The notes beneath the pieces are model-generated. The model was not told where the DNA came from. It did not search any database and saw nothing but the letters and a program-made list of their open reading frames with translations. The translations under genes and the position numbers were made by a program. This document shows positions 24,207 to 49,582 of a stretch of DNA of 64,000 bases, in pieces. The DNA is taken from positions 124,001 to 188,000 of the forward strand of contig JACVCH010000003.1 of the NCBI GenBank assembly GCA_016742175.1, read 5' to 3'. Numbering within the stretch: the first letter of the stretch is position 1; each line of letters begins with the position of its first letter. This DNA comes from Rhizobiaceae bacterium (GTDB taxonomy: Bacteria > Pseudomonadota > Alphaproteobacteria > Rhizobiales > Rhizobiaceae).

Positions 24207-24341
24207 TTTCGACCTTCCCGTATTGGTCCAACATCAAACTGGCTGACGGAATACCGTCACTGGCAGGCCCTGTCGATTGCTTTGTCGACGCTTTTTGCTA
24301 CCAAGCACCGATCCGAACCATGGTTGAACGAAGGAAGTCCG

Positions 24342-25091: not shown

Positions 25092-25271
25092 ACAATTCGA
25101 TTTAAAATGCAGCATCGTCATTGGCGGGCTCTTCACCACCTGACAAGGCGACACATCTGGTTACCTGACGCAGCCATGGCCGCGCACTAGCATAGTCATA
25201 TGGCGAATCGCCTGAGGCATGACCCTCGGGCGGCGTCTCGCCATCGGTATTGATGCGGCGGGAGTGTGCGT

Positions 25272-25712
25272 ATGAGTGACGAAGACATGGCGATCGCGGG
25301 CGACGCGATCGAATCGCAAAGGCTGCTGGAACTGACGACGCAGATCGTCTGTGCCTATGTCAGTCATAACCCGGTTCCAGCCTCGGAAGTCTCGGGGTTG
25401 ATTGGGTCGGTTCACCGTTCGATCGCCGCTCAGGGGCAATCCAGCGCCCCGGAGCCGAACCAGGAGCCGGCCGTGCCGATCCGAAAATCGGTGACGCCCG
25501 ACTACATCATCTCGCTAGAGGACGGACGCAAGTTCCGCACCCTGTCGCGCCATCTCATGGCCAAATACGGCATGACGCCGGAGCAGTACCGCCGCAAATG
25601 GGGCCTGCCCGACGACTACCCCATGGTCGCGCCGAACTATGCCGTCGAGCGCTCGAAGATCGCCAAGTCGATGGGTCTCGGCCGCCCCGAAGCCGGCAAT
25701 TCGGACGAATAG
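25272..25712 (+). CDS. MucR/Ros family transcriptional regulator with altered zinc-ligand positions
   Basis: The 146-residue protein belongs to the MucR/Ros family of Alphaproteobacteria, global regulators of surface polysaccharides, motility and virulence. The N-terminal half is helical (oligomerisation region) and the C-terminal half holds the zinc-finger-like DNA-binding fold. In this copy the usual first Cys is Ser (DYIISLEDG) and the usual last His is Lys (RHLMAKYGMTP); the Asp and the first His remain. Zinc-free Ros homologues that keep the fold are known from Mesorhizobium. GTG at 25266 is in frame, but ATG at 25272 lies well placed behind GGGAG. Confidence 0.9.
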   Translation: MSDEDMAIAGDAIESQRLLELTTQIVCAYVSHNPVPASEVSGLIGSVHRSIAAQGQSSAPEPNQEPAVPIRKSVTPDYIISLEDGRKFRTLSRHLMAKYGMTPEQYRRKWGLPDDYPMVAPNYAVERSKIAKSMGLGRPEAGNSDE

Positions 25713-25765: not shown

Positions 25766-26143
25766 TTAGCCGATCAGCGGGCAATGCGGCGCGCGTCCGA
25801 ACACCACCCAGACGCGCTCGCCGCGCGAGCGGCCGATGATCTCGATCGAGCGCCGGCCGACATCGACCACTTCGGGACGCCGGATGCCCATGCGCTCGGC
25901 CTTGCGCAGCGCGTCACGCGGGGAGCAGCCGCCACGGCCGCGCCACTCATCGCGATCGCGGTATTCGCCGCGGTCCCAACGGCCCGGTCCACGATCGCGA
26001 TCATAGCCACGACCCGGCGCGAAGAACTCGGCCCCCGGCCGATGGCCGCCGCCCAACCCATAATAACCACGATCCTGCGCCGCCGCAGGCAGGGTGGTCA
26101 GCAGACTGGCTGCGACCAGACCCCAAACAGCGATCTTTTTCAT
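25766..26143 (-). CDS. Small secreted Arg/Gly/Asp-rich protein of unknown function
   Basis: The 125-residue product begins at an ATG behind GAGGGG. A signal peptide ([23 protein letters not shown]) precedes a low-complexity stretch rich in Gly, Arg, Asp and Tyr (about residues 24-70). A conserved-looking C-terminal module follows (SPRDALRKAERMGIRRPEVV, then IEIIGRSRGERVWVVF) with two cysteines. Similar short periplasmic proteins are common in Rhizobiales, without known function. Convergent with mucR. An exact GTTC-N7-GTTC lies 82-96 bp upstream of its start. Confidence 0.7.
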   Translation of the reverse strand: MKKIAVWGLVAASLLTTLPAAAQDRGYYGLGGGHRPGAEFFAPGRGYDRDRGPGRWDRGEYRDRDEWRGRGGCSPRDALRKAERMGIRRPEVVDVGRRSIEIIGRSRGERVWVVFGRAPHCPLIG

Positions 26144-26224
26144 GACAAACCCCTCGTCGACATCGCACGATTGCGATCTGGACATACCCTACGCGCCAGA
26201 AGCTGAACGGAGCGCCTACGGCCC

Positions 26225-26239
26225 GTTCATCAGCCGTTC
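26225..26239 (-). promoter_or_regulatory. Possible LexA box upstream of the secreted-protein gene
   Basis: GTTC-N7-GTTC matches the alphaproteobacterial LexA operator core. It is 82-96 bp before the start of the minus-strand gene at 26143 and about 190 bp before the plus-strand peptide at 26429. The spacer is GC-containing rather than AT-rich and no clear promoter overlaps it, so it may be a chance match. Confidence 0.3.
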
Positions 26240-26374
26240 ATGGCCCAGCCGGCGACGGTCGGGCAATCCGTTCGGTACACAATATCCCCTTGTTCTATCG
26301 GCAATAACCGCCCGTGTCGCGCTCAGGTGAAGCCTTGCGGGCAGACGGCCTGCCGCAAAATTTGCCGATACCGC

Positions 26375-26403
26375 TTGCAATTAGAACAAAACAAGAACAT
26401 AAA
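26375..26403 (+). promoter_or_regulatory. Promoter with embedded LexA (SOS) box
   Basis: A -35-like TTGCAA (26375-26380) and a -10-like CATAAA (26398-26403) are 17 bp apart. Between them, at 26384-26398, is an exact GAAC-N7-GAAC with an A/C-only spacer, the inverse orientation of the alphaproteobacterial LexA operator. The operator fills the spacer, the usual position for repression. A strong GAGGAG ribosome site (26416-26421) follows. Confidence 0.65.
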
Positions 26404-26428
26404 GGCTCAGCAACTGAGGAGAACATCC

Positions 26429-26515
26429 ATGTCCGATCTCGTCCACGACCTCGTCTCGTTCGTTTCCATCGGCGCCTTCATCACCACGCTGGCACTTTGG
26501 CTGGTCGCCGTCTGA
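26429..26515 (+). CDS. 28-aa single-span membrane peptide, predicted SOS-regulated
   Basis: The short frame encodes MSDLVHDLVSFVSIGAFI followed by TTLALWLVAV, 28 residues in all. Residues 9-28 form one hydrophobic helix, and the first eight are polar with two Asp and one His. The ATG lies 7 nt after GAGGAG, one of the best ribosome sites in the window. The promoter carries an exact LexA box. Size, single span and SOS control resemble Caulobacter SidA (an SOS-induced division inhibitor) and E. coli TisB, but sequence homology to either was not established. Its TGA abuts the convergent ggt stop (TGATCA). Confidence 0.65.
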   Translation: MSDLVHDLVSFVSIGAFITTLALWLVAV

Positions 26516-28276
26516 TCAATCGCCAAGGGCAACGCCTTCGCGGCGCGGATCGGCGGCGCCTTCGATCCTCGTCGCCGTGAACTCGATGCCGTGCAGGCCC
26601 GAATTGAGTTCGCGCGTCTCCGTCTCGTAGCCAAATGCTTGAAGGGCAGGGGCGAAGCCCTCCGCCGTCGAACCGGCCTCGAGCCAGTAGGGGCCAGCGA
26701 TGTTCGCCAGATGCGGCAGGGCGATCGCCTCGTTCATCGGCATGTCCCAGTCGATCAACGCGACGAGCGTCTTGGCGACATAGGGAATGATGGTCGCGCC
26801 GCCGGGTGAGCCGAGCGCATAGACCGGCTTTCCCTCCCGAAGGACGATCGTCGGCGCCATCGAGGAGCGCGGACGTTTCGACGCCTCGACGCGGTTCGCC
26901 ACCGGTCCGGCATCACCATCGGGCAGGAAGGAAAAGTCGGTGAGCTGGTTGTTCAAGAGATAGCCATTGGCGATCACCCGCGCGCCGAAGGCATTCTCGA
27001 TCGACGACGTCATGGAAATGACGTTGCCCTCCTTATCGGCGATGACGAAATGCGTCGTGGCAGGTGCTTCGTGGGAAAAGCCGTCGATCAGGTTTTCCGT
27101 TCGCTTCATCGGCGGTTCGCCGGCAATGACCTCGTCGTCGGCCATCGCTTCCTCCGGCTGCAGTAGCCGGGCGCGCTCGGCAAGATATGCGCCATCGAGA
27201 AGGCCGGACGGCATGTCGACGAAGTCGGGGTCCGCCAGATAGCGATTGCGGTCGGCGAAGGCGAGGCGGGTCGCATCGCCGATGAGCCGCCACGACTTCG
27301 CGTCGTCGGCGCCGAGCGCGCGCAGGTCGTAAGGCGCGACGAGGCCGAGTATCTGGCCGACGGCGATGCCGCCGGAAGAGGGGGGCCCCATGCCGCATAT
27401 GTCGAGGCCGCGATAGGTGGCGCAGACCGGTTCGCGTTCCACGATTTCGTAGTCGGCGAAGTCGGAGAGCGCCAGCGAACCCGGATTCGTCGGATGGCCG
27501 GCCACCGCATCGACGATGGCGGCGGCGAGATCGCCCCGGTAGAAGGGTGCGGCGCCGTCCTCGGCAAGTGCGCGCAGTGCATCGGCATAGTCGGCGTTGC
27601 GCAGCTCGTCTCCCGCCGCAAGGGCGTTGCCTGCGGGAAAGAAATAGGCGGAAGCCGCCGGATCGGGGTCGAGCCGGCCGGTTTCGTCTTCCAGCAATCC
27701 GGCCAGGCGCGGGGAAACGATGAAGCCGCCTTCGGCGAGTTCGATCGCACCGGCCAGGGTTTCGCCCAACTCCAGCCTGCCATGCCGTTCGGCGAGGAGT
27801 TCCAGAAGCAGCGGCACGCCGGGCACGCCGACCGATCGCCCGCCGACGACGGCCTCGAAAAACGGCAGCGGCTCGCCATTGTCGTCGAGGAAGAGATCGG
27901 GCGTCGCATCCGCCGGCGCCGTCTCGCGCGCGTCGTAGGTGGTCAGCTTGCCAGTATCGCCATCGAACCAGATTGCGAAGGCGCCGCCACCGAGGCCTGA
28001 CGATTGCGGCTCGACGAGGCCGAGCACGGCCTGCACCGCGATCGCCGCATCCGCCGCCGACCCGCCCTGGCGCAACACCGCTCTGCCGGCCTCCGCGGCG
28101 AGGGGATTTGCGGCAACGACCATCGCCTCGTTCGCCGTCACCAGCGGTGCCGTTTGCAGGCCGGTCGCGGCCTCGGGCGCGATGAGATCGCTTTGGCTCT
28201 GGGCCGCCGCCGGCTCGGCGAGCGAAAGCGCCAGGACTGCAAGAACGGGCAGGGGCGCTCGCAAGAGCTTCGACAT
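26516..28276 (-). CDS. ggt: Gamma-glutamyltransferase
   Basis: The 586-residue periplasmic enzyme cleaves or transfers the gamma-glutamyl group of glutathione and related peptides. A signal peptide (about 25 residues, ending EPAAAQ) precedes the large-subunit region. Autoprocessing should occur before the Thr of the ATTHFVIAD motif near residue 390, giving the N-terminal nucleophile of the small subunit. MGPPSSGGIAVGQ, SMAPTIV and ALGSPGGATI are further family motifs. A good AAGGAG site precedes the start. lipB ends... its neighbour lipB lies downstream by 21 bp in the same orientation and may be co-transcribed... the order of transcription is lipB then ggt. Confidence 0.94.
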   Translation of the reverse strand: MSKLLRAPLPVLAVLALSLAEPAAAQSQSDLIAPEAATGLQTAPLVTANEAMVVAANPLAAEAGRAVLRQGGSAADAAIAVQAVLGLVEPQSSGLGGGAFAIWFDGDTGKLTTYDARETAPADATPDLFLDDNGEPLPFFEAVVGGRSVGVPGVPLLLELLAERHGRLELGETLAGAIELAEGGFIVSPRLAGLLEDETGRLDPDPAASAYFFPAGNALAAGDELRNADYADALRALAEDGAAPFYRGDLAAAIVDAVAGHPTNPGSLALSDFADYEIVEREPVCATYRGLDICGMGPPSSGGIAVGQILGLVAPYDLRALGADDAKSWRLIGDATRLAFADRNRYLADPDFVDMPSGLLDGAYLAERARLLQPEEAMADDEVIAGEPPMKRTENLIDGFSHEAPATTHFVIADKEGNVISMTSSIENAFGARVIANGYLLNNQLTDFSFLPDGDAGPVANRVEASKRPRSSMAPTIVLREGKPVYALGSPGGATIIPYVAKTLVALIDWDMPMNEAIALPHLANIAGPYWLEAGSTAEGFAPALQAFGYETETRELNSGLHGIEFTATRIEGAADPRREGVALGD

Positions 28277-28297: not shown

Positions 28298-29008
28298 TCA
28301 GTCTACGTCGCCGAACACCTCTTCGAAAGCGGCCTTCATCGCCACGTCAACATCGGTCATCGTCACCGGCAGGCCGAGGTCGACGAGGCTCGTCACGCCA
28401 TGGCCGCGAATGCCGCATGGCACGATGCCGTCGAAATGACCGAGATCCGGCTCGACATTGAGCGCGATGCCGTGAAACGACACCCAGCGCCGCAGCCTTA
28501 TGCCGATCGCCGCGATCTTGTCTTCCGCCGGCGAGCCGTCCGGCAGCGCCGGTCGTTCAGGCCGCACCACCCAGACGCCGACGCGGTCGTCGCGCCGCTC
28601 GCCCTTGACGTTGAAGCGACCCAGCGTGCGGATGATCCATTCTTCGAGCGCGGCGACGAAGGCCCGCACGTCCTCGCGCCGGCGCTTCAGGTCGAGCATG
28701 ACATAGGCGACCCGCTGGCCGGGGCCGTGATAGGTGTATTCGCCGCCGCGCCCTGCCGCGAAGACGGGAAAACGATCGGCCACCAGAAGGTCTGCCGCAT
28801 CCGCGCTCGTGCCGGCCGTATATAACGGCGGGTGCTCGACCAGCCAGACGAGTTCGCGGGCCGTCCCGTCGCGGATCGCGCCCGCGCGCGCTTCCATGAA
28901 GACGAGCGCGGCGGGATAGTCGACCAGGCCCGGCTCGATCCGCCACTCGACCGCAGCCGATCCGGGGATCGCCAGGAACTGGGCGGGCAGGGCGTCGCGC
29001 GTGGTCAT
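28298..29008 (-). CDS. lipB: Octanoyl-[ACP]:protein N-octanoyltransferase LipB
   Basis: The 236-residue enzyme moves octanoate from acyl carrier protein to lipoyl domains, the first step of endogenous lipoate synthesis. Motifs include [17 protein letters not shown] (substrate loop), [17 protein letters not shown] with the conserved Lys, and [17 protein letters not shown] carrying the acyl-thioester Cys. The start was placed at the ATG at 29008, because the in-frame extension upstream lacks family similarity. It precedes ggt by 21 bp. lipA is not in the window. Confidence 0.95.
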
Positions 29009-29170
29009 GATCAGGCGGATGTATGGGATCGCAGCGCGCGCGTCCACTCGTTGACGCAGCGTCTTGCCGCAAACGGCAAAATAATCGGCAATTCCCCGCC
29101 CGCGCACTTGTGCGGGGTGGGGCGATTTGCTAATTGCGCCGGGCCGGTCAAGACCGGCTGGTCATGGCGT

Positions 29171-41017: not shown

Positions 41018-43819
41018 CTACTCCGCCTGCCCTTCGCCCGCATTCCCGGCGGCATCCGCCGCGGTCTGCGCCACGATCTCGGCCTCGCTTTCCAGTTCTT
41101 CGTCCCCGTTTTGCGGATCGGAAATCCGCTCCACCGAAACGACCTTCTCGTCCTTCGCCGTATTGAAGATCGTCACGCCCTTGGTGGCGCGGCTGGCGAA
41201 GCGAATGCCGTTGACCGGCACGCGAATGACCTGCCCCGCATTCGAGACGAGCATGATCTGGTCGTCATTCTCCACCGGGAATGCCGCGACCAGCGATCCG
41301 ATCTCACCCGCCTTCGAGATATCCGTCGCCCGTATGCCCTTGCCGCCGCGGCCGATCACGCGGAAATCATACGATGAAGACCGCTTCCCGTAGCCCTTCT
41401 CGCTGACCGTGAGGACGAACTCCTCGCGCGCCTTGAGTTCCTCGTAGCGCTCGGCGTCGATCTGCGCGTCCTCCGAGACTTCCTCGTTGGTCAACGCAAT
41501 CTCTTCCTCCTCGCCCGTCACCGCCCGGCGCTCGGCGGCCGACTGTTTCAGATATGCAGCGCGTTCTGCCGGCGTCGCATCGACATGATGCAGGATCGCC
41601 ATCGAGATGACGCTGTCGCCATCGGCGAGGTTGATGCCGCGCACGCCGGTCGAGTTGCGGCTCTGGAAAACGCGCACGTCGGTGACCGGGAAGCGGATGC
41701 ACTGGCCTGATCCCGCCGTCAGCAGGATGTCGTCATGCTCGGTGCAGGTGTAGACGCCGAGGATCTCGTCGCCCTCCTCGTCCAGCTTCATCGCGATCTT
41801 GCCGTTGCGGTTGACCTGCGTGAAATCGGAAAGCTTGTTGCGGCGAACGGTGCCCCGCGTCGTCGCGAACATGACGTCGAGATTGCCCCAGCTCTCCTCG
41901 TCCTCCGGCAGCGGCATGATGGTGGTGATGCGCTCGCCTTCCTGCAGCGGCAGCATGTTGCGCAGGAACTTGCCGCGCGACTGCGGCGTGCCGATCGGCA
42001 GGCGCCAGACCTTCTCCTTGTAGACGATGCCGCGCGAGGAGAAGAACAGGATCGGCGTGTGCGTGCTGGCGACGAACAGGCGCGTGACAAAATCCTCGTC
42101 GCGCGTCGACATGCCCGAGCGGCCCTTGCCGCCGCGCCGCTGCGCCCGGTAGATCGAGAGCGGCACGCGCTTGATGTAGCCGGAGTGGCTGACCGTGACG
42201 ACCATGTCCTCGCGCGCGATCAGGTCCTCGTCGTCCATGTCCGCGCCGCCTTCGGCAAGCTCGGTGCGCCGCGGCGTGCCGAACTCGTCGCGAACCGCGA
42301 TCAGCTCGTCCTTGACGATCTGCTGGATGCGCGCGCGCGACGACAGGATGTCGAGGAAGTCCTTGATCTCGTCGCCGATCGCGTTCAGCTCGTCGGCGAT
42401 CTCATCGCGGCCGAGGGCGGTCAGGCGTTGCAGCCGCAGTTCGAGGATCGCGCGGGCCTGCTCCTCGGAAAGATTGTAGGTGCCGTCCTCGTTGATCCGG
42501 TGGCGCGGATCGTCGATCAGGCGGATCAGCGCCTCGACGTCATGCGCCGGCCAGCGCCGCGTCATCAACTGCTCGCGCGCCGTCTGCGGGTCCGGCGCCC
42601 TGCGGATGAGCGCGATGATCTCATCGATATTGGCGACCGCGATCGCCAGGCCCACCAGCACATGCGCGCGCTCGCGTGCCTTGCGCAACAGATACTTGGT
42701 GCGCCGGCTGACGACGTCCTCGCGGAAAAACACGAAGGCGCGCAGCATGTCGAGCAGGTTGAGCTGCTCCGGCTTGCCGCCATTGAGCGCGACGATGTTC
42801 GCGCCGAACGAGGTTTGCAGCGGCGTGAAGCGGTAGAGCTGGTTCAAGATGACGTCGGCGACGGCATCGCGCTTCAGTTCGATGACGACGCGATAGCCCT
42901 GGCGGTCGGATTCGTCGCGGATGTCGGAAATGCCCTCGATGCGCTTGTCGCGCACGAGTTCGGCCATCTTCTCGATCATCGACGCCTTGTTCACCTGGAA
43001 CGGCACCTCGGTGACGATGATCGCCTCGCGGTCGCCGCGCATCGGCTCGACATGGACCTTGCCGCGCATCAGGATCGAGCCGCGGCCCGTCTCGTAGGCG
43101 CTGCGGATGCCCGCCTTGCCGAGCACGATGCCCCCCGTCGGGAAATCGGGACCGGGGATGATCTCCATCATCTCGTGGAGCTCGATCGCCGGATTGTCGA
43201 TCAGCGCTACGCAGCCGTCGACGACCTCGGAGAGATTGTGCGGCGGAATGTTCGTCGCCATGCCGACCGCGATGCCGCCCGAACCGTTGACCAGAAGGTT
43301 CGGAAAGCGCGCCGGCAGGACCTTCGGCTCCTGGCCGGAGGAATCGTAGGTGTCCTGCCAGTCGACCGTTTCCTTATCGATGTCCTCGAGCAGTTCGTGC
43401 GCGACCTTGGTCAGGCGCGATTCCGTGTAGCGCATCGCCGCCGGCGGATCGCCGTCGATCGAGCCGAAATTGCCCTGCCCGTCGATCAGCGGCACGCGCA
43501 GCGACCAATCCTGCGCCATGCGCACCAGCGCGTCGTAGATCGAGGCATCGCCATGCGGGTGGTATTTACCCATAACGTCGGCGACCGGACGGGCCGACTT
43601 CACGTATTTGCGGTTCCAGTAATAGGCGCTCTCATGGCTGGCATAGAGAATGCGCCGATGCACCGGCTTCAGCCCGTCGCGCACGTCCGGCAGCGCCCGG
43701 CTCACGATGACGCTCATGGCGTAATCGAGATAGGAACGCTGCATCTCCTCGATGATGGAAATCGGCTCGATGTCGTCCGGTCCGCCCTGCGGCCCGCGCG
43801 GTGTCGTCAAATCGGTCAA
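41018..43819 (-). CDS. gyrA: DNA gyrase subunit A
   Basis: The 933-residue topoisomerase II subunit cuts and rejoins DNA during negative supercoiling. The catalytic Tyr is Y131 in MRYTESRLT. The breakage-reunion domain (residues 20-510) is followed by the six-bladed C-terminal beta-pinwheel, which contains the GyrA-box-like [10 protein letters not shown]. An acidic loop and tail extend the protein beyond the E. coli length, as usual in alphaproteobacteria. In the quinolone-determining region the residue equivalent to E. coli Ser83 is Ala92 ([10 protein letters not shown]). A promoter candidate lies at 43857-43884. Confidence 0.97.
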
Positions 43820-45499: not shown

Positions 45500-46030
45500 T
45501 CAGAACGGGATTTCGTCGTCCAGGTCGCGGCCATAGCCGCCTCCACCACCGCCGCCGGACTGCCCGCCACGCCCGCGATCGTCGGACGGGCCGGACTGGC
45601 CGAAATCGCCGCCGCGACCGCCACCACCCGAATACCCACCGCCGCCGCCATAGCCGACCTGGCCCTGGTCACCGCCCTGTCCGCGCGAATCCAGCATCTG
45701 CAATTCGCCTCGGAATTTCTGCAGCACGATCTCGGTCGTATAGCGCTCGACGCCATCCTTCTCCCACTTACGGGTCTGGAGCGCGCCCTCGATATAGACC
45801 TTCATGCCCTTCTTCAGATACTGCTCGGCGACCTTGGCAAGGTTGTCGTTGAAGATGACGACCTGATGCCACTCTGTCTTCTCCTTGCGCTCGCCGGAAT
45901 TCTTGTCGCGCCAGCTTTCCGAGGTCGCGATGCGCAGGTTGACCACCGGATCGCCCGAGTTCAGGCGGCGCGTTTCCGGATCGGCCCCGAGATTGCCCAC
46001 CAGAATGACCTTGTTGACGCTGCCTGCCAT
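45500..46030 (-). CDS. ssb: Single-stranded DNA-binding protein
   Basis: The 176-residue protein has an N-terminal OB fold (residues 1-112, [19 protein letters not shown] through VERYTTEIV). A glycine-rich flexible linker of about 50 residues follows, then the acidic tip DLDDEIPF, which recruits partner proteins. It protects single-stranded DNA in replication, repair and recombination as a tetramer. The ATG at 46030 is the family start; upstream in-frame sequence is intergenic. It is divergent from uvrA across 627 bp, and an exact LexA box lies 94-108 bp upstream. Confidence 0.97.
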
Positions 46031-46123
46031 GTCGCTCTCCAGATTACATACACTCGTGCCGGCACCATAGTGGATGCCGCTCTGTGGCGCGCCGGTGAAG
46101 TACCCGCGGTCCACAACAAACAT

Positions 46124-46138
46124 GTTCTTCTTTTGTTC
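46124..46138 (-). promoter_or_regulatory. LexA (SOS) box, ssb-proximal
   Basis: GTTC-TTCTTTT-GTTC exactly matches the alphaproteobacterial LexA operator GTTC-N7-GTTC with an AT-rich spacer. It is 94 bp upstream of the ssb start and within the shared ssb/uvrA region. Confidence 0.75.
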
Positions 46139-46512: not shown

Positions 46513-46657
46513 TTTTGCCTTGAAGGCGCCGAGGAAAAGCAGCAAAAGGAATTTGGCTCGCGCGCCGGCCTCGACGGACGCGTCAGATTACCTACATGTG
46601 CGGCTTGGCCGGACGGCTCATTCCCGGCGACGCAATCAGGAAGGCAGCGTTCGGCCC

Positions 46658-49582
46658 ATGGCGGACCACAAATTCATTTCCGTGCGCGGCGCGCGCGAAC
46701 ACAATCTCAAGAATGTCGACCTCGACCTTCCCCGCGACTCGCTGATCGTGATGACCGGCCTGTCCGGCTCGGGCAAGTCCTCGCTCGCCTTCGACACGAT
46801 CTATGCCGAAGGCCAGCGCCGCTATGTCGAGAGCCTGTCGGCCTATGCCCGCCAGTTCCTCGAAATGATGCAGAAGCCGGATGTCGACCAGATCGACGGC
46901 CTGTCGCCCGCCATCTCGATCGAGCAGAAGACGACGTCGAAGAACCCGCGCTCCACGGTCGGCACCGTCACCGAGATCTACGACTACATGCGCCTGCTCT
47001 TTGCGCGCGTCGGCATTCCCTATTCGCCCGCGACCGGCCTGCCGATCGAGAGCCAGACGGTCAGCCAGATGGTCGACCGCGTGCTCGAGGTCGAGGAAGG
47101 CGCGCGTCTTTATATCCTGGCGCCGATCGTCCGCGGCCGGAAGGGCGAGTACAAGAAGGAACTCGCCGAGTTGATGAAGAAGGGCTTCCAGCGCGTGAAG
47201 GTCGACGGCACCTTCTACGAGATCGCGGACGTCCCGGCCCTCGACAAGAAGTACAAGCACGACATCGACGTCGTGGTCGACCGCATCGTCGTGCGCGGGG
47301 ACCTTGCGACGCGGCTCGCGGATTCGATGGAGACCGCGCTCCGCCTCGCCGAAGGCCTTGTAATCGCCGAATTCGCCGACAAGCCGCTCGGCGAGGAGAT
47401 GACGGGTGCGGACGCGGTCAACAAGTCGAAGAACGAGACGCATGAGCGCATCCTGTTCTCCGAAAAGTTCGCCTGCCCGGTTTCCGGTTTCACCATTTCC
47501 GAGATCGAGCCGCGGCTCTTCTCCTTCAACAATCCGTTCGGCGCCTGCCCGACCTGCGACGGTCTGGGCAGCCAGAAGGCGATCGATCCCTCGCTGATCG
47601 TGCCGGAAGAGCACGTCTCCTTGCGCGAAGGCGCCGTCGCCCCCTGGGCGAAGTCCTCTTCGCCGTATTACGTGCAGACGCTCGAAGGCCTCGGCCGTGC
47701 CTACGGCTTCAAGATCGGCGACCGCTGGCGCGACATCGGCGACGAGGGCCGCAACGCGATCCTTCACGGCACCGGCACGCGCAAGATCGAGTTCTCCTAT
47801 GATGACGGCATGCGCAGCTACAAGACCTCGAAGACCTTCGAGGGCGTGATCCCGAACCTGCAGCGCCGCTGGAAGGAGACCGAATCCGCCTGGATGCGCG
47901 AGGAGATCGAGCGCTTCATGTCGGCCACCCCCTGCCCGGCCTGCAACGGCTACCGCCTCAAGCCCGAGGCGCTGGCGGTCAAGATCGCCGGGCACCACAT
48001 CGGCCAGGTCACCGAAATGTCGATCCGCAAGGCGGTCGGCTGGTTCGAAGAATTGCCGAAGGCGCTCAACGACAAGCACAACGAGATCGCCGTCCGCATC
48101 CTGAAGGAAATCCGCGAGCGCCTGCGCTTCCTCAACGATGTCGGCCTCGACTATCTCACCATGTCGCGCAATTCGGGAACGCTGTCGGGCGGCGAGAGCC
48201 AGCGCATCCGCCTCGCCTCGCAGATCGGCTCTGGCCTGACCGGCGTTCTCTATGTGCTCGACGAGCCGTCCATCGGCCTCCACCAGCGCGACAATGCGCG
48301 CCTCCTCGACACGCTCAAGCACCTGCGCGACCTCGGCAACACGGTTATCGTCGTCGAGCACGACGAGGACGCGATCCTCCAGGCCGACCACGTCGTCGAC
48401 ATCGGCCCGGCCGCCGGCATCCATGGCGGCAAGATCATCGCCGAGGGCAAGCCGGCCGAGATCATGGCCAACCCGAATTCGCTGACCGGGCAATATCTGT
48501 CGGGCTCGATGGGCATCGCGCTGCCGGCCGAGCGGCGCAAGTCGAAGAAGGGCAAGCGCATCAAGGTCGTCGGCGCGCGCGGCAACAACCTGCGCAACGT
48601 CACGGCCGAAATCCCGCTCGGCACCTTCACCGCCGTCACCGGCGTTTCGGGCGGCGGCAAGTCCACCTTCCTCATCGAGACGCTTTTCAAGGCCGCCTCA
48701 CGGCGGATCATGGGCTCAAGGGAGCATCCGGCCGAGCACGACGGCATCGAGGGCCTCGAATTCCTCGACAAGGTCATCGACATCGACCAGTCGCCGATCG
48801 GCCGCACCCCGCGCTCCAACCCCGCGACCTACACCGGCGCCTTCACCCCGATCCGCGACTGGTTCGCGGGCCTGCCCGAGGCAAAGGCGCGCGGCTACCA
48901 GCCCGGCCGCTTCTCCTTCAACGTCAAGGGCGGCCGCTGCGAGGCGTGCCAGGGCGACGGCGTCATCAAGATCGAGATGCACTTCCTGCCCGACGTCTAC
49001 GTCACCTGCGACGTCTGCCATGGCAAGCGCTACAATCGCGAGACGCTGGACGTCACCTTCAAGGGCAAGTCGATCGCCGACGTGCTCGACATGACGGTCG
49101 AGGAAGGCGTCGACTTCTTCGCCGCCGTGCCGGCCGTGCGCGACAAGATGGAGACGCTGAAGAAAGTCGGCCTCGGCTACATCCATATCGGCCAGCAGGC
49201 GACGACGCTCTCGGGCGGCGAGGCCCAGCGCATCAAGCTCGCCAAGGAACTGTCGCGCAAGGCGACCGGCAAGACGCTCTACATTCTCGACGAGCCGACC
49301 ACCGGCCTGCATTTCCACGACGTCGCGAAGCTCCTCGAAGTGCTGCACGAACTCGTCGACCAGGGCAACACCGTCGTCGTCATCGAGCACAATCTCGAAG
49401 TCATCAAGACCGCCGACTGGGTGCTCGACCTCGGCCCAGAAGGCGGCGACGGCGGCGGCCAGCTCGTCGCCTCCGGCACGCCCGAGGACGTCGTCGCCGA
49501 GCCGAAAAGCTACACCGGCCAGTTCCTCAAGGAACTCCTCGTACGCCGGCCCATCATCGGCAAGGCCGAGGCAGCGGAATGA
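46658..49582 (+). CDS. uvrA: Excinuclease ABC subunit A
   Basis: The 974-residue damage-recognition ATPase of nucleotide excision repair has two ABC modules. The first shows [20 protein letters not shown] with signature [13 protein letters not shown]; the second shows [15 protein letters not shown] with [15 protein letters not shown]. The C-terminal zinc module is intact (CEACQGDG and CDVCHGKRY). In the first zinc module the usual CxxC reads CPVS, so one ligand is lost, although CPTCDGLG is kept. The start is the ATG at 46658; an upstream in-frame extension is non-coding. A LexA box lies 146 bp upstream. Confidence 0.97.

Follow-up and report, generated by a model that had tools for sequence, protein, structure and literature searches.

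The window analysed here, a stretch of 64,000 nucleotides of Rhizobiaceae DNA, contains a 28-codon gene that is most probably a rhizobial orthologue of sidA, i.e. a gene for a peptide that would be LexA-repressed, damage-induced and FtsW-directed and would stop cell division. Observed at this locus and among its relatives are the frame, the operator sequence, their conservation, selection acting on the protein, and a relation to the Caulobacter division inhibitor SidA in both sequence and genomic position.

The peptide gene and its promoter in the window

The features of the locus, together with neighbouring genes that serve as context or as a control, are the following (positions are those of the window).

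26375..26380, + strand: -35-like TTGCAA of the peptide promoter (read directly from the sequence)
26384..26398, + strand: LexA-type operator GAAC-N7-GAAC, GAACAAAACAAGAAC, within the promoter spacer (sequence and conservation)
26398..26403, + strand: -10-like CATAAA, 17 bp after the -35 (sequence)
26416..26421, + strand: ribosome-binding site GAGGAG, 7 nt 5' of the ATG (sequence)
26429..26515, + strand: putative sidA orthologue, 28-aa single-helix peptide MSDLVHDLVSFVSIGAFITTLALWLVAV plus stop (HMM matches in relatives, profile match to Caulobacterales SidA)
26516..28276, - strand: gamma-glutamyltransferase (GGT) gene, convergent, its stop codon adjoining the peptide stop; context, outside the system (NCBIfam TIGR00066)
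28298..29107, - strand: lipB; context (26/60 fetched loci have GGT and/or lipB 3' of the peptide)
45500-46123, - strand: ssb (named by its sequence)
46649-49579, + strand: uvrA (NCBIfam)

A preliminary description of this DNA had reported an exact GAAC-N7-GAAC between TTGCAA and CATAAA elements spaced by 17 bp, followed by GAGGAG and a 28-codon frame, and all of these elements are found in their places, with the frame running exactly from the ATG at 26429 to the TGA stop at 26513-26515. The encoded peptide is one hydrophobic stretch with the acidic residues D3 and D7 near its N-terminus, in agreement with the single hydrophobic helix and short acidic N-terminus described earlier. A longer frame of 91 aa, starting from 26240, is possible in register with the peptide, but the ATG at 26429 is taken as the start, because the ribosome-binding site lies there and relatives keep 28 aa from the same point.

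On their own, the box and promoter are unremarkable, since exact matches to GAAC-N7-GAAC/GTTC-N7-GTTC number seven in the 64-kb window versus 2.1 expected, and from 26180 to 26700 no promoter is listed by a generic sigma-70 scan. Other exact GTTC-N7-GTTC matches are located at 24315, 26225, 40206, 42281 and 46498; the one at 42281 is inside gyrA and the remaining four are not tied to a promoter. The window also offers a positive control, namely an SOS-type box (GTTCTTCTTTTGTTC; its opposite-strand reading is different at one base) at 46124-46138, between the divergent ssb and uvrA genes, and lexA itself is encoded in the same genome, about 10 kb beyond the left end of the window. On the other side of the peptide gene, a minus-strand ORF at 25766-26185, kept in two congeners, adjoins a MucR-like gene (25266-25712, named by eye); NCBIfam gave no match for either of the two.

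Conservation of the peptide and of its operator

A direct search with the peptide sequence gives matches at E ≤ 1 in 25 of 61 genomes, a set made up of relatives and the window's own genome. An HMM of the peptide, built from 20 relatives, finds it in 360 of 394 Rhizobiaceae-group genomes and 99 of 106 genera at E ≤ 0.1 per genome, a threshold at which chance matches are possible: counted by eye, the best E exceeds 0.001 in 37 of the 360, which leaves about 323 at E ≤ 0.001. A frame not conserved in close relatives, and an operator absent there, had been named beforehand as two outcomes that would refute the proposed gene; both frame and operator are conserved. Specifically, 60 loci were fetched around well-scoring matches, selected on peptide score and not on the promoter, and an exact GAAC-N7-GAAC in the same orientation is present at -100 to -10 in 50 of the 59 homologue loci counted (43 of 49 genera; L096 was left out, its upstream DNA being too short), as compared with 18 of 11,088 windows of 90 bp drawn at random from these loci. 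Among the nine loci that miss the exact box, L103 and L105 are second copies elsewhere, L101 is boxless and six have boxes that appear degenerate by eye. A TTG[AC][CA] at most 15 bp before the first box lies exactly 4 bp away in 33 of 45 cases, the same distance as in the window.

Two side observations concern these loci. The second copies are boxless and lie off the dnaE locus, with lengths of 32 aa (L103, G020:C27) and 28 aa (L105, G164:C3:118200-126500). In addition, 14 of the 60 loci (including L055, L058, L078, L084, L087, L100 and L108) have operators with three GAAY half-sites at 11-bp spacing, which amount to two overlapping boxes, and several Caulobacterales promoters likewise have more than two half-sites.

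The protein itself is also conserved. Across five congeners, pS is 0.36-0.64 versus a pN of 0-0.09, so the amino-acid sequence of the peptide is under purifying selection in the window's genus. A chance ORF behind a chance box was rejected on the spread of the HMM matches, the conservation of the operator and the pS/pN values taken together. A pattern scan of named genomes returned at least 118 stretches, 117 of which were parsed (L334 was left out), and among the matches listed 111 of the 117 are 28 aa long. More specifically, 114 of those listed are alphaproteobacterial, with 111 at exactly 28 aa and one more cut at the locus end; the listed matches in Firmicutes (L301, L346 and L395) are chance matches. 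Carriers among the matches listed comprise Rhizobium, Mesorhizobium, Agrobacterium, Neorhizobium, Brucella/Ochrobactrum, Bartonella, Nitratireductor, Martelella and others. An origin as a plasmid or phage gene was rejected, since tblastn with the peptide gave no match in 72,556 plasmid records and a single one, at E 9, in 50,697 phage records; a defence gene was rejected as well (PADLOC 0/49).

As for the 34 family genomes without an HMM match, lexA is present in 14 of the 20 that were checked versus 19 of 20 genomes with a match, which is a trend only. Of 19 dnaE loci from these matchless genomes, 7 carry an exact box and a divergent peptide (e.g. MLAFAKDCLSLAAVSGFVYAFSLLICVV), which shows that some divergent members escape the HMM. 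Among the 12 matchless genomes that remain, ten are no larger than 2 Mb.

Common genomic position between lolD and dnaE1

The common arrangement of the locus is proS-lolCE-lolD-peptide-dnaE1, where LolC/E, LolD, DnaE, GGT and LipB were assigned as markers by NCBIfam (LolD below the cut-off, but as the best match) and ProS by eye. Among the family loci fetched, dnaE is the next downstream marker in 25 of the 60, convergent GGT and/or lipB are found downstream in 26 (with lolD still upstream in 20 of these), and nine have neither. For loci fetched outside the family, dnaE is downstream in 16 of 17. The window copy is followed by GGT/lipB and not by dnaE1, and its genus keeps the GGT/lipB side of the peptide, the lolD side having been lost. 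In the window's genome the block is split over three places, with dnaE at G000:C5:235088, the best lolD match at G000:C29:3840 and the peptide, at window position 26429, with GGT/lipB.

Linkage of this kind raises the question of whether the peptide merely serves dnaE1, as a leader or uORF peptide controlling its expression, which is the role offered for Sinorhizobium meliloti 5'-UTR sORFs such as sORF25. Such a reading could draw on the frequency with which dnaE1 lies downstream, on the position of sORF25 in the dnaE1 5'-UTR (PMC10117765) and on the stretch from peptide to dnaE being free of terminator-like hairpins in all 25 of the linked loci. It is nevertheless very improbable, given that the loci in which convergent GGT and/or lipB stand downstream instead, the window included, still conserve the peptide, that selection acts on the amino-acid sequence and that the gene has its own LexA-type promoter; indeed, a pure dnaE leader was rejected on the GGT/lipB neighbours. 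The missing hairpins do make SOS read-through into dnaE1 possible, but this is weak evidence because shuffled sequences predict only 0.4 hairpins in the same loci. Additional read-through from the peptide promoter into dnaE1 may accompany the action of the presumed SidA orthologue.

Related peptides at the same dnaE locus also occur in other families. A class-wide profile search outside Hyphomicrobiales matched 10 of 290 genomes at E ≤ 0.02, a count that includes the window's own genome and several plainly spurious matches. In a class sample of 60 dnaE-upstream regions (one of them the window genome's own and three from its order), a box in the peptide orientation is present in 17, each time with a short hydrophobic ORF behind it, and the other 43 yield a single 1-mismatch box with a hydrophobic ORF that is, by its residues, inside lolC. 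In 14 of the 16 loci outside the family that were inspected, an exact box lies no more than 160 bp from the match.

Relation to SidA and to other systems

The reference for this comparison is Caulobacter crescentus, where sidA is CCNA_02004 (PMC10769358), dnaE is CC1926 (PMC1839093) and CCNA_02005 is a nucleoside hydrolase (PMC3667746). In that species, overproduction of SidA blocks division, ftsW/ftsI alleles suppress the block and SidA binds FtsW/FtsN (PMC4211646); sidA has been used as an early SOS gene (PMC12700426), and low-confidence AF3 models set SidA on TM7 of FtsW (PMC13396833). The DivK protein of C. crescentus (PDB 1m5t) was used as a tag for a C. crescentus-type genome, and G1097 carries it at 100%. 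This genome has a box directly 5' of dnaE and a frame ending in 29 residues from an internal ATG. (CC1926 is presumably CCNA_02003 in the other numbering.) The 29-aa ORF matches the NCBIfam model NF033228, ‘cell division inhibitor SidA’, end to end (positions 1-29 of 29; E 2e-20, 72.4 bits, cut-off 35), and on this match, its length, its place and the DivK tag it can be regarded as the probable C. crescentus-type SidA. Among 30 Caulobacterales genomes, which are those with a good DivK match and not a random draw, 21 loci have the exact box, every one with a SidA-type peptide, and in the other nine the peptide is likewise in this place, but the half-sites depart from the exact pattern. With E values up to 1 allowed, NF033228 recognises 16 of 20 Caulobacterales peptides.

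Sequence profiles connect the rhizobial peptides to this group. The rhizobial alignment was reduced from 57 distinct 28-aa peptides to 49 by leaving out near-duplicates and L105, the off-locus copy, and the Caulobacterales alignment consists of 20 of the 30 loci, picked by hand. With hhalign, the two align without gaps at a probability of 93.6 (E 2e-7), and an order-wide alignment does so with the Caulobacterales one at 96.3 (E 1.9e-9). Internal starts giving 29-32 aa were chosen by hand for several Caulobacterales and some order-wide peptides, and register and length in these two alignments consequently lean towards SidA. Identity is low, at 17% between the rhizobial peptides and the C. crescentus-type SidA in the profile alignment.

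A scoring matrix derived from rhizobial sequences only was also run on 380 hydrophobic small ORFs of 26-45 aa (nested starts included) from 90 dnaE loci. Its top 30 are all dnaE-upstream peptides, 115-359 bp from the dnaE match (31 positions checked), and include the C. crescentus-type SidA, 29th at -10.2, with the thirtieth at -11.5 and the next at -19.0. Register 0 is by far the best for this SidA (-10.2 versus -20.9 or worse), and all 20 peptides of the Caulobacterales alignment beat their own shuffles (p 0.0044 or less). Because the matrix scores of Caulobacterales peptides are mostly negative, the argument rests on rank, register and shuffles. Of the boxed class-level peptides, five of 17 reach the top 30; the other 12 either score as background or lie outside the limits set on length and hydrophobicity, and the same is true of some Caulobacterales forms (L280, L277).

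The low identity, the near-failure of the profile outside Hyphomicrobiales and the 12 boxed class-level peptides outside the top 30 would suit SOS peptides that evolved independently in the same dnaE-upstream place and have a function other than that of SidA. Such convergence is nonetheless hard to credit in view of the gap-free profile alignment, the strong preference for register 0 and the related peptides at the same locus in other families. Support for homology of the rhizobial peptide to SidA comes from the box, the peptide length and the sequence profile, and from the position in dnaE-linked loci. The divergence is considerable. Per-column conservation in rhizobia and Caulobacterales showed no significant correlation (rho 0.23, p 0.27), the Caulobacterales W19-M20 is not kept in rhizobia, and the curated model NF033228 matched neither the window peptide nor any of 49 rhizobial relatives, nor any of the 10 other class or family members tried; Pfam matched none of 25 peptides. 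Since none of the 49 relatives scores, the rhizobial peptide represents a diverged branch, related to the curated NF033228 family and outside it.

The earlier suggestion was of a SidA- or TisB-like peptide, and the two halves of it have fared differently: the relation to SidA is upheld by place, box, length and profile, and for TisB no homology was found. Escherichia coli TisB, a membrane peptide similar in length to the rhizobial one, is induced by the SOS response, and pore-forming peptides of its kind are cationic. An SOS-type operator and a short hydrophobic helix would indeed be expected of a toxin that depolarises the membrane and induces dormancy, kept in check by an antisense RNA. There is only a slight chance that this is the function here, as the profile relation is to SidA instead, no Rfam RNA lies in 26000-26900 (a search that covers described RNA families only), and many members, the window's among them, have neither Lys nor Arg. 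Conservation is, moreover, helix-periodic (p 0.0099 in Caulobacterales and, marginally, p 0.053 in rhizobia), a pattern suggestive of protein contact. A TisB-type toxin was accordingly rejected as the main reading, on the Rfam result and the SidA relation.

For a SidA orthologue, the course of events would be as follows. LexA on the GAAC-N7-GAAC box between -35 and -10 would keep the peptide gene off; upon DNA damage RecA would become active, LexA would be cleaved and the 28-aa peptide would be made. It is predicted to insert as one transmembrane helix and, analogous to Caulobacter SidA, to bind the late divisome (FtsW, with FtsI/FtsN), possibly making contact through the conserved D/E7, S/A10, S13 and F17, whereby septal cell-wall synthesis would be held inactive until repair is done and LexA returns. 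For the rhizobial peptide, we infer LexA binding, damage induction, membrane insertion, target and division arrest from this analogy. A broader scenario is conceivable, if somewhat doubtful: SidA may be an ancestral SOS division brake of the Alphaproteobacteria, retained next to lolD and dnaE1, in the gap that separates them, from an early point in the history of the class, and acting in the polar-growing Rhizobiaceae group too (on the same doubtful footing, in Rhizobium, Agrobacterium, Mesorhizobium, Brucella and Bartonella), with the LexA-controlled transcript running into dnaE1 in dnaE-linked genomes, so that damage would both stop division and supply the replicative polymerase.

SidA has been described in Caulobacter, and among the sequences tried the curated model reached Caulobacterales only. 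No title or abstract on a rhizobial SidA was found in the open-access literature (most subscription papers were outside this scope), nor did fragments of the peptide sequence find a match there. By its sequence the peptide appears to be a SidA-kind member on a diverged branch outside NF033228, and an earlier mention in the subscription literature is possible. If it is an orthologue, rhizobia and related bacteria have in it a single-gene candidate for their SOS division checkpoint. In S. meliloti, the translated sORF already reported upstream of dnaE1, with a uORF role as the earlier suggestion, would then also have a function. The deep divergence further offers a natural set of variants with which to map how FtsW could be turned off by a 28-residue helix in pole-growing cells.

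Compared with known systems, the peptide is closest to C. crescentus SidA (CCNA_02004; NF033228), with which it shares a length of 28-29 aa, a single helix, a LexA-type box in the promoter, the place upstream of dnaE1 in the common arrangement, and an acidic residue 7, [AS]10, [LF]11, S13 and F17. It differs in that rhizobial members lack both an NF033228 score and the W19-M20 of Caulobacterales, and in that the window copy does not adjoin dnaE1. From TisB it may differ in having no Rfam match for an antisense RNA nearby (described families, 26000-26900), and presumably in charge make-up. In S. meliloti, Ribo-seq placed sORF25, formerly unannotated, in the dnaE1 5'-UTR among novel translated sORFs, with possible uORF roles suggested (PMC10117765); it is possibly the same peptide, an identity by position only, and the available text of that report mentions no damage treatment for sORF25. 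Caulobacter DidA is likewise a small, single-pass, DNA-damage-induced division inhibitor (PMC4211646), but at 71 aa, SOS-independent (DriD) and interacting with FtsN, it is set apart by description. The same holds for Bacillus YneA, Staphylococcus SosA and Mycobacterium ChiZ, SOS-induced membrane inhibitors of late division that low-confidence AF3 models put, like SidA, on FtsW TM7 (PMC13396833), but which are, by description, larger proteins, some with a LysM domain.
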